Position numbers and translations under genes: made by a program. A stretch of 64,000 bases of DNA from Bdellovibrio bacteriovorus HD100 (GTDB lineage: Bacteria > Bdellovibrionota > Bdellovibrionia > Bdellovibrionales > Bdellovibrionaceae): the NCBI RefSeq assembly GCF_000196175.1, contig NC_005363.1:1116001-1180000 (forward strand), read 5' to 3'. Positions 30,444-32,109 of the stretch are shown one piece after another (position 1 is the stretch's first letter; every line of letters begins with the position of its first letter). Under the pieces are notes generated by a model. That model was not told the DNA's origin. It did not search any database and was given only the letters and a program-made list of their open reading frames with translations.

Positions 30444-30581
30444 AGATTCGTTAGAACTTATAGCTGGACCTCGCCGCTCAGACAGTCCTCGTTCGTGTTT
30501 TTTTGGCGGTGGCTCCGCAGAGGCTGTTTTGCCTCACTGCGGAACTCGCGTCGATGTCCAGCTATAAGTTCTAACGAATCT
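30444..30581. repeat. Foldback element A, upstream of lemA
   Basis: Two 26-bp arms (30444-30469 and 30556-30581) are perfect reverse complements around an 86-nt centre. The centre holds its own hairpin, with CCGCAG and AGGC pairing to GCCT and CTGCGG. Blocks of the centre (GACAGTCCTCG, GGTGGCT-CCGC, TGCGGAACT-GCG) recur in element B at 31981-32109, while the arms do not. The right arm ends four bases before the lemA Shine-Dalgarno. Confidence 0.85.
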
Positions 30582-30599
30582 AACGGAGGCCTTGTTTTT

Positions 30600-31190
30600 A
30601 TGAAAAACCGTATTCTAGTTCTTGCTTTGATGTTGATGCCATTTTTGGCAGGTTGTGGGATTCAATCTCTTCCTCAAGCTAAGAATGCTACTGAGGCTGC
30701 TTTGGCTGAGGTGAACAATCAATACAAACGTCGGGCTGATTTGATTCCGAATCTTGTGAATGTTGTTAAGGGTTATGCGAAGCATGAAGAAGCTACTTTG
30801 ACGGCGGTGACAGAGGCTCGTGCCAAAGCGACCGCTATGCAGATTGATCCTTCCAAAGTGACTCCCGAGCAACTGGCGAAATTCCAGCAGGCGCAAAGTG
30901 GTTTGTCTCAAGCTTTGGGTCGTTTGATGGTGGTGTCAGAGCAGTATCCTCAGTTGAAAGCGGATCAGAACTTCCGTGATCTTCAGGCTCAGCTGGAAGG
31001 CACCGAAAACCGCATCACAATTGCTCGTCAAAGATACATCGAGACTATCAATGCATTTAACAACCAAGTCAGCGTTCCGCCGACAAGCTGGACAAATGCG
31101 ATCATGTATCACTTCGAAAAAATGCCTCAATGGGACATGACTCCGGAAGAAAAAGCTTCTGCTGAAAAAGCACCGGAAGTGAAGTTCTAG
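30600..31190 (+). CDS. lemA: LemA family lipoprotein
   Basis: The ATG at 30600 (GGAGG 10 bp upstream) gives 196 residues with a lipobox (PFLAGC). The LemA helical pattern follows: EVNNQYKRRADLIPNLVNVV, KGYAKHEEATLTAVTEARA, then ITIARQRYIETINAFNN. LemA proteins are membrane-anchored helical bundles of unclear role, often next to TPM-domain genes as here. The same frame is open for 800 bp upstream, but that stretch lies antisense to the methyltransferase gene and crosses the foldback element, so it is not coding. Confidence 0.9.
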   Translation: MKNRILVLALMLMPFLAGCGIQSLPQAKNATEAALAEVNNQYKRRADLIPNLVNVVKGYAKHEEATLTAVTEARAKATAMQIDPSKVTPEQLAKFQQAQSGLSQALGRLMVVSEQYPQLKADQNFRDLQAQLEGTENRITIARQRYIETINAFNNQVSVPPTSWTNAIMYHFEKMPQWDMTPEEKASAEKAPEVKF

Positions 31191-31203
31191 TTTGTCAGGG
31201 AAC

Positions 31204-31959
31204 ATGCGTTTCTTAGCATATTCTTTTTTCGCTTTCTTCTTGGCCCTGGGTGTTTCCGCCCGGGCTGAGTTTAAGGTTCCCACGCTGACCGGTCCTGTGA
31301 TGGACGAGGTCGGTTATCTTTCCCGCAACGACCGTCAAGAGCTGATGCAGCTTCTTTATGACTTCAACAAACGCGGGGTCGCTCAAGTTCAAGTTTTGAT
31401 CGTTCCTACCTTGGATGGCATGCCCATCGAGATGGCGTCCATTGCTGTCACTGACAAGTGGAAGCTCGGGGACGAGAAAAAAGACAACGGGGTTTTGTTC
31501 CTGATTGCGGCCAATGATCGCAAACTGCGTATTGAAGTCGGGCAGGGTCTTGAAGGCGCTATTCCCGATGTGATCGCCAGCCGGATCATTCGTGATCAGG
31601 TGGTGCCGTTGTTCCGCGCCCGTCAATTTTCTGCCGGGATCGTGCTGGGGACACACGAGATCTTACGTCTGGCGGATAAAGAGTTCGCAGAACAAAACGG
31701 ACTGCAGGAAGGTGTTCCTGCAAAAAGTGACCGTGATGGTTCCGGCGGCGATATTCCTATTGGTGTGATCATCATTCTCTTCATCATTATTTCTATCCTG
31801 GGTCGCTTTGGTGGCGGTCGTGGACGTCATCTTCGTGGTGGCGGCTGGGGCGGTGGCTACGGTGGTGGTGGGGGATGGTCTTCCGGCGGGGGTGGCGGAG
31901 GCGGCTGGTCCGGTGGTGGCGGCGGCTTCAGCGGCGGGGGCTCATCCGGCAGTTGGTAA
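31204..31959 (+). CDS. Secreted/membrane TPM-domain protein (YgcG family)
   Basis: The product is about 251 residues with a signal peptide ending in SARAE. A TPM domain follows (GPVMDEVGYLSRNDRQELMQ, then DNGVLFLIAANDRKLRIEVG and GLEGAIPD). A transmembrane helix (PIGVIIILFIIISIL) comes next, then a Gly-rich C-terminus ending SGGGSSGSW, the hallmark of this family. The TPM domain lies on the periplasmic side. The start is ATG 31204 or TTG 31192, as AGGGA sits very near the ATG. The gene lies 13 bp after lemA. Confidence 0.88.
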   Translation: MRFLAYSFFAFFLALGVSARAEFKVPTLTGPVMDEVGYLSRNDRQELMQLLYDFNKRGVAQVQVLIVPTLDGMPIEMASIAVTDKWKLGDEKKDNGVLFLIAANDRKLRIEVGQGLEGAIPDVIASRIIRDQVVPLFRARQFSAGIVLGTHEILRLADKEFAEQNGLQEGVPAKSDRDGSGGDIPIGVIIILFIIISILGRFGGGRGRHLRGGGWGGGYGGGGGWSSGGGGGGGWSGGGGGFSGGGSSGSW

Positions 31960-31980
31960 ACCAAGCTCTCGGGGCTGCGT

Positions 31981-32109
31981 CTTGGGGAAAGGCTCTTTGC
32001 CTTACCCGCTTCGGACAGTCCTCGCTCTTGGTTTTCTGTGGTGGCTGCCGCTGGGTTTTTGGTGTTCGCTTGCGGAACTTGCGAGTAAGGCAAAGAGCCT
32101 TTCCCCAAG
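31981..32109. repeat. Foldback element B, between the two TPM genes
   Basis: Two 25-bp arms (31981-32005 and 32085-32109) are perfect reverse complements around a 79-nt centre, and pairing continues outward past one mismatch (CTGCG with CGCAG). The arms do not resemble those of element A, but the centre shares its blocks: GGACAGTCCTCG, GGTGGCTGCCGC and TGCGGAACTTGCG in the same order and orientation. Confidence 0.85.

Follow-up and report, generated by a model that had tools for sequence, protein, structure and literature searches.

Stem-loops at the lemA/TPM cluster

The stretch of DNA analysed here, called the window, comprises 64,000 nucleotides of the Bdellovibrio bacteriovorus HD100 genome (positions 1,116,001-1,180,000 of the 3,782,950-base chromosome) and harbors a lemA-like gene followed by TPM-type genes, among which lie two hairpins, element A (30444-30581) and element B (31981-32109), detected from the sequence and with a repeat finder and each formed around a common two-part core (Table 1). 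Their outer arms are perfect inverted repeats of 26 bp in A and 25 bp in B, as the first-pass annotation had described, and extend to 34 nt at 94% in A, with the inner part included, and to 35 nt at 94% in B. The centres have ordered blocks in common, again as first described, namely GACAGTCCTCG (starting at 30481 in A and 32014 in B), GGTGGCT(x)CCGC within either loop, and TGCGGAACT, whereas the arms of A and those of B are unrelated in sequence. Inwards from the arms, both elements have a short stem interrupted by a C-T or similar mismatch, then the 5′ motif, the loop and the 3′ motif. Element A does abut the lemA Shine-Dalgarno sequence. A lemA promoter with its −10 hexamer in the left arm of A (TTGTGG-17-TAGAAC) was considered and rejected as too weak, a promoter scan yielding only a promoter on the other strand.

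Table 1. Features of elements A and B and their neighboring genes (positions in the window).
Feature	Position	Strand	Remark
Element A left arm, 26 bp, perfect	30444-30469	+	Native lemA leader sequence, also in species without element A
Element A inner left stem	30470-30479	+	Single C-T mismatches, then CTCA junction (pairing diagram)
Element A 5′ core motif AGACAGTCCTCG	30480-30491	+	
Element A variable loop	30492-30537	+	A-poor, T-rich, contains GGTGGCTCCGC
Element A 3′ core motif TGCGGAACT	30538-30546	+	
Element A right arm	30556-30581	+	Inverted copy of 30444-30469; missing at empty sites
lemA Shine-Dalgarno CGGAGG	30584-30589	+	Directly 3′ of element A
lemA-like gene	30600-31190	+	ATG at 30600; named in the first-pass annotation from sequence alone
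TPM-type gene 1	31204-31959	+	Stop about 21 nt 5′ of element B left arm; named likewise
Element B left arm, 25 bp, perfect	31981-32005	+	
Element B 5′ core motif CGGACAGTCCTCGC	32012-32025	+	
Element B variable loop	32026-32070	+	
Element B 3′ core motif TGCGGAACT	32071-32079	+	
Element B right arm, 25 bp, perfect	32085-32109	+	

A dispersed family of stem-loop elements

Elements A and B are copies of a family of small dispersed stem-loop elements. The pattern GACAGTCCTCG-N30..60-GCGGAACT has nine exact matches in the HD100 genome and none in a reversed control, and when further matches to the 5′ motif TTCGGACAGTCCTCG were examined, they turned out to be full copies whose loops are longer or shorter. 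A covariance model, the search first proposed for these elements, yields 21 matches in the HD100 genome (about 21 copies) and matches in 23 of the 24 genomes of the genus Bdellovibrio, where 145 distinct copies were catalogued, so that the early concern that no further copies might exist is dispelled. At the level of the order, 37 of 141 genomes have matches, although long hairpins of any kind also score in the model; the two order-level matches inspected both have the same core. Copies are gained and lost between species, and in two species about 90% identical to HD100 the same core is found at the same loci, with most copies syntenic. No family of Rfam release 15 reaches its gathering threshold on the elements, the sole RNA family found being tRNA, and a minus-strand hit to SSRC8_2 (26.7 bits against a threshold of 72) is a sub-threshold long-hairpin match. 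None of the eight attack-phase sRNAs listed in PMC3627812 coincides with a copy, nor was a description of such a family found in the open-licence PMC literature.

The family reaches well beyond Bdellovibrio. An exact scan for GGACAGTCCTCGC-N20..50-TGCGGAACT in 84,980 species returned 27 stretches, against an estimated chance expectation of about 0.9, of which eight belong to Bdellovibrio and 19 to Adlercreutzia, Enterorhabdus, Rubneribacter, another member of the Eggerthellaceae, Collinsella, another actinobacterial MAG, Myxococcales MAGs, a deltaproteobacterial MAG and an Omnitrophota MAG; contamination is possible for each of the MAGs, a caveat that does not extend to the named isolates of Adlercreutzia and Collinsella. 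The motif occurs 13 times in the Myxococcales MAG nzgw251 and twice in the Omnitrophota MAG, and at least 16 of the 19 stretches outside Bdellovibrio have paired variable arms. In Adlercreutzia caecimuris, more than 30 further places match one of two query copies, some over about 80 bp of core only and others with the arms included, and one Adlercreutzia subfamily has inner arms in common. Viral contigs gave no exact match to the core pattern. On these matches, the family spans several bacterial phyla: Actinomycetota, Myxococcota, Omnitrophota and Bdellovibrionota. With 21 matches in one genome, copies across genus, order and phyla, and none in the reversed control, the notion of chance hairpins with a coincidental common core can be dismissed.

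A conserved core and its position behind genes and tRNAs

The core consists of two strands, CTTCGGACAGTCCTCGC ... TGCGGAACTCGC, around a variable, A-poor loop, the whole set on a long Watson-Crick stem. Core sizes fall into three clusters (45-52, 60-70 and 95-100 nt), of which the mid and long classes have T-rich loops (A 10%, T 40-46%). Near-invariant across the order, the core has 5′ and 3′ motifs that can form a conserved stem, P2, in which AGUcCuCGC pairs with GCGGaACU. Single changes in P2 give G-U about 33 times and A-C twice, and in copy L158 a compensatory A-U pair is seen; in the short class there is an inner hairpin with covariation, its inner stem being Watson-Crick-only. Where the core takes the variant form GGACACATCC, the arms are still perfect or near-perfect. 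In all, the core looks like a folded single-strand motif.

The placement of the copies relative to genes is distinctly one-sided around tRNAs: 24 of the 145 copies lie directly 3′ of a tRNA, all in sense, and none precedes one, the tRNAs concerned being all Leu (TAA, GAG, CAA) or Arg (TCT, CCT). Another 56 copies follow a sense ORF, with 17-90 nt (mostly 40-60) between stop and core, 45 precede a sense ORF, and 20 have an antisense ORF ending on their right side. In the other phyla, the copies lie 36-53 nt after the stop in most cases in which a stop was found. One copy (L121) occupies the leader of an apparent leucyl-tRNA synthetase gene (HD100 leuS), and copies also stand behind three tRNA-Leu genes, possibly a coincidence.

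This sense placement behind genes and tRNAs in several phyla, the separate copy that each gene of a convergent pair possesses, the A-poor loop, the G-U-tolerant P2, the covarying inner stem of the short class, and a core scarcely altered across an order are all what would be expected of the main rival to the interpretation developed below, a cis-acting structured RNA (3′-UTR, trailer or leader) whose long outer stem, P1, is kept only by selection for RNA pairing, any arm sequence serving equally well. As a full account of the elements we consider it rather unlikely, for reasons that lie in the arms.

Location behind stop codons would also suit transcription terminators, or insertions into native terminators whose stems became the arms, and a hairpin with a T run does occur in the left arm at rpoN and in those of the group L201/L209/L214/L229. 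Yet terminator-like hairpins are found in 34 of 136 left arms, compared with 45 of 144 controls taken downstream and 11 of 132 taken upstream, and the z-scores for arm folding are nearly those of the controls. In A and B, the right arm is not immediately followed by a T run. On these counts we regard this explanation as highly improbable. A search of element A for an intrinsic terminator (stem of at least five pairs, loop of 3-8, T run) was negative. Insertion behind native terminators as a general rule was likewise rejected, there being no enrichment of terminator-like left arms over the downstream controls.

Arm pairing and substitutions

In 19 aligned copies, 94.4% of cells pair, compared with 60% in shuffles and 31-44% in slid registers, and 22 of 23 arm pairs display two-sided changes, which bears out the proposal that each copy either retains its pairing or acquires it afresh; G-U occurs in just one of the 437 arm cells. 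The arm cells of the 145 copies comprise 3498 Watson-Crick pairs, 67 A-C, 24 G-T and 70 other combinations, and the isolated interior mismatches 38 A-C and 15 G-T, with the proviso that cells from related species are non-independent and the excess of A-C over G-U is weaker than the raw counts imply. Ordinary RNA stems tolerate G-U better than A-C. In the arms, A-C mismatches are some 2.5 times as frequent as G-T on the sense strand, the opposite of what a sense RNA stem would lead one to expect.

Compensated arm changes between homologous copies, of which 44% are transversions (114 transitions, 90 transversions), have a ratio near that of the flanks (525 transitions, 596 transversions). At several loci, the identity of the left arms is only 0.46-0.63 beside upstream flanks of 0.86-0.97, with the right arm changing in step with the left. 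At ahcY, a 13-nt block differs between HD100 and genome G003 in both arms, with the outer arm and upstream flank nearly unchanged. The rarity of G-T relative to A-C and the flank-like spectrum of compensated changes suggest DNA copying from arm to arm more than selection on an RNA stem, and so point to the former as the better explanation of arm pairing. They also count against the cis-acting RNA, for which covariation is strong and G-U is tolerated in P2, but not in the arms. Taken together, the G-U-tolerant P2 and the G-U-poor arms indicate that the core behaves as a sense-strand fold and the arms as DNA repeats; of the earlier suggestion of a structured RNA with compensatory arms, the first part agrees with the core and the second fits the arms poorly.

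Arm sequences are for the most part private to a locus, and their per-position composition across Bdellovibrio copies is close to random. The view that arms are unrelated between copies holds for A versus B, though not for the Adlercreutzia subfamily mentioned above or for some orthologous loci; copies whose arms are conserved throughout, the outcome that would have spoken against it, did not emerge. Orthologues have conserved arms at the lemA, rplL and tRNA-Leu loci, and those of the orthologous copies L050 and L052 are fully conserved although the loops change, which suggests selection on the arms there. At the tRNA-Leu(TAA) loci (L022, L091, L210 and others), two versions of the arms are distributed across species without tracking loop similarity; L091 and L210 have loops in common but not arms, as if the arms had been exchanged and re-copied.

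Empty sites and the origin of the arms

Alignment with empty sites, as had been recommended for these elements, was carried out at lemA and other loci. In species without element A (genomes G014, G011, G001 and others), the leader reads ...GATTCGYTAGAAAT(..)AGCTGGAC and then passes directly into the lemA start region; the left arm is thus present there, and the core and right arm are missing. In species with element A, the core and the inverse of the left-arm sequence are added after the left-arm sequence. At lemA, therefore, the core and an inverted copy of the upstream flank were inserted beside an existing left-arm sequence. In eight other genomes (G020, G010, G015, G013, G023, G022, G016 and G012), the recognisable part is limited to the outer AGATTCGATAGAAAT. 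Among the species that have element A, the right arm tracks changes in the left arm. A lemA protein tree allows for either one or several entries of element A.

Other loci give a mixed picture. At the rpoN site in genome G006, the left arm is present and the core and right arm are absent. HD100 has no element at the L128 locus, where it retains only part of the left arm. The right arms of the tRNA copies include the inverse of the tRNA 3′ (CCA) end, and these copies thereby agree with flank copying. Species without element B have 11-67 nt between the TPM1 and TPM2 genes with neither arm, so that both arms of B came with, or after, the insertion, and at the recG-rsmD copy of Adlercreutzia the empty sites similarly have no pre-existing left arm. 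No target-site duplication was seen by eye at the lemA, rpoN and L128 empty and filled sites, and the ends of the elements are not sharp. The L117 site in G006 was rejected as an empty site, since it reads as a slippage deletion leaving a coreless hairpin. Copies L128, L147 and L086 lie at the very start of a lipoprotein-like gene, readable in frame, the HD100 orthologue being without a copy. The original idea that flanking DNA is copied into an inverted duplicate thus holds for element A, whose left arm pre-exists, and the sequences are consistent with it at the tRNA copies and rpoN, but neither element B nor the recG-rsmD copy shows it.

Template switching can create and maintain hairpins (PMC8794818). 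If the core allows a growing DNA strand to fold back with the left arm as its template, such switching would make the right arm and, after a mutation in the left arm, would later rewrite it; the arms could then drift freely and yet stay complementary. The core itself would be retained because it works in folded, single-stranded form, most probably as RNA at the 3′ ends of transcripts, given that the copies lie immediately 3′ of genes and tRNAs in the sense orientation. Such a self-completing stem-loop, its arms made and maintained by core-primed fold-back copying and its core retained for some role near the ends of transcripts, seems to us about evenly poised between right and wrong. More tentative is the picture of a palindrome, present across several phyla, whose core fold would prime the copying of upstream DNA into an inverted right arm and go on rewriting that arm, giving every copy its own almost perfect stem made out of host DNA. 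The absence of a pre-existing left arm at B and recG-rsmD weakens the generality of flank copying, and sense-strand placement, loop composition and P2, which fit a plain RNA element too, count against template switching, as do the fully conserved arms of L050 and L052. The plain cis-acting RNA, in turn, accounts poorly for a lemA right arm that mirrors a pre-existing leader.

Relation to known palindromic elements

Integron attC sites, of about 60-140 nt, lie downstream of ORFs in fixed orientation and are variable, imperfect palindromes. Their outer boxes, RYYYAAC and GTTRRRY, are conserved, whereas in the present family the conserved motif lies 25-35 bp inside the stem, no R′′/R′ boxes are conserved at the outer ends of the copies, and the copies stand singly behind housekeeping genes. 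Group IIC introns insert in sense behind terminator hairpins, but are intron-sized RNAs with a reverse transcriptase, and a preference for terminators is not general here. Palindromic elements of Rickettsia are mentioned in PMC3733652. They resemble the present family in being palindromic and, through the L128 copy, in occurring at the start of a coding gene, but differ from it in sequence. The Rickettsia elements insert into coding genes, and their ends are conserved. REP palindromes, which carry a GTAG or CGTC tag and are associated with RAYT transposases (PMC3733652), and the BIMEs are likewise small, dispersed, intergenic and often near 3′ ends, but there the palindrome itself is conserved, while the present copies conserve their centre and have private outer arms, unrelated to one another, and neither end bears a constant tag. 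MITEs, ERIC and RUP elements (PMC2229807) are similar in being non-autonomous, about 100-150 bp long and formed of one long stem; their terminal inverted repeats are conserved family-wide, unlike those of the present family except in the one Adlercreutzia subfamily.

If the elements were non-autonomous mobile DNA recognised through the hairpin of one strand, in the manner of REP/RAYT or attC, G-T would be about as harmful as A-C; this reading could account for outer and inner stems that are Watson-Crick-only, for presence and absence between species, and for the many matching places in A. caecimuris. We nevertheless regard it as improbable, given the lack of conserved ends and of visible target duplication, the synteny of most copies between species about 90% identical, and a conservation of the core at single loci that exceeds that of a fossil.

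Known small bacterial repeats, then, usually conserve their ends, whereas this family conserves its inside and has private, nearly perfect arms, some of which are inverted host DNA (a gene leader, tRNA 3′ ends). Template switching with quasipalindrome correction, which makes and repairs perfect inverted repeats in one step and is a candidate process for the arms, is a general mutation mechanism (PMC8794818), as distinct from a repeat family with a conserved core. The family offers a natural test of whether hairpins stay paired through DNA template switching or through selection, an issue that PMC8794818 brings up for RNA genes. Its unchanging core in the phyla named above, mostly near transcript ends, further points to a function or a mobiliser undescribed in the open-licence PMC literature.

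Two elements, L280 (G000:C1:2406870, minus strand) and that of the G003 ahcY locus (L283/L274), contain a second insertion nested in the core, between ACAG and TCCTCGC, made up of two perfect hairpins whose arms are unrelated, with an identical linker, TCCTTCGGACTTCGCG, between them; the linker is found nowhere else in the 24 genomes. A dispersed repeat of another kind, about 30-40 nt long, lies downstream of the L122 element (query positions 2242-2278) and is present many times in each of four Bdellovibrio genomes.
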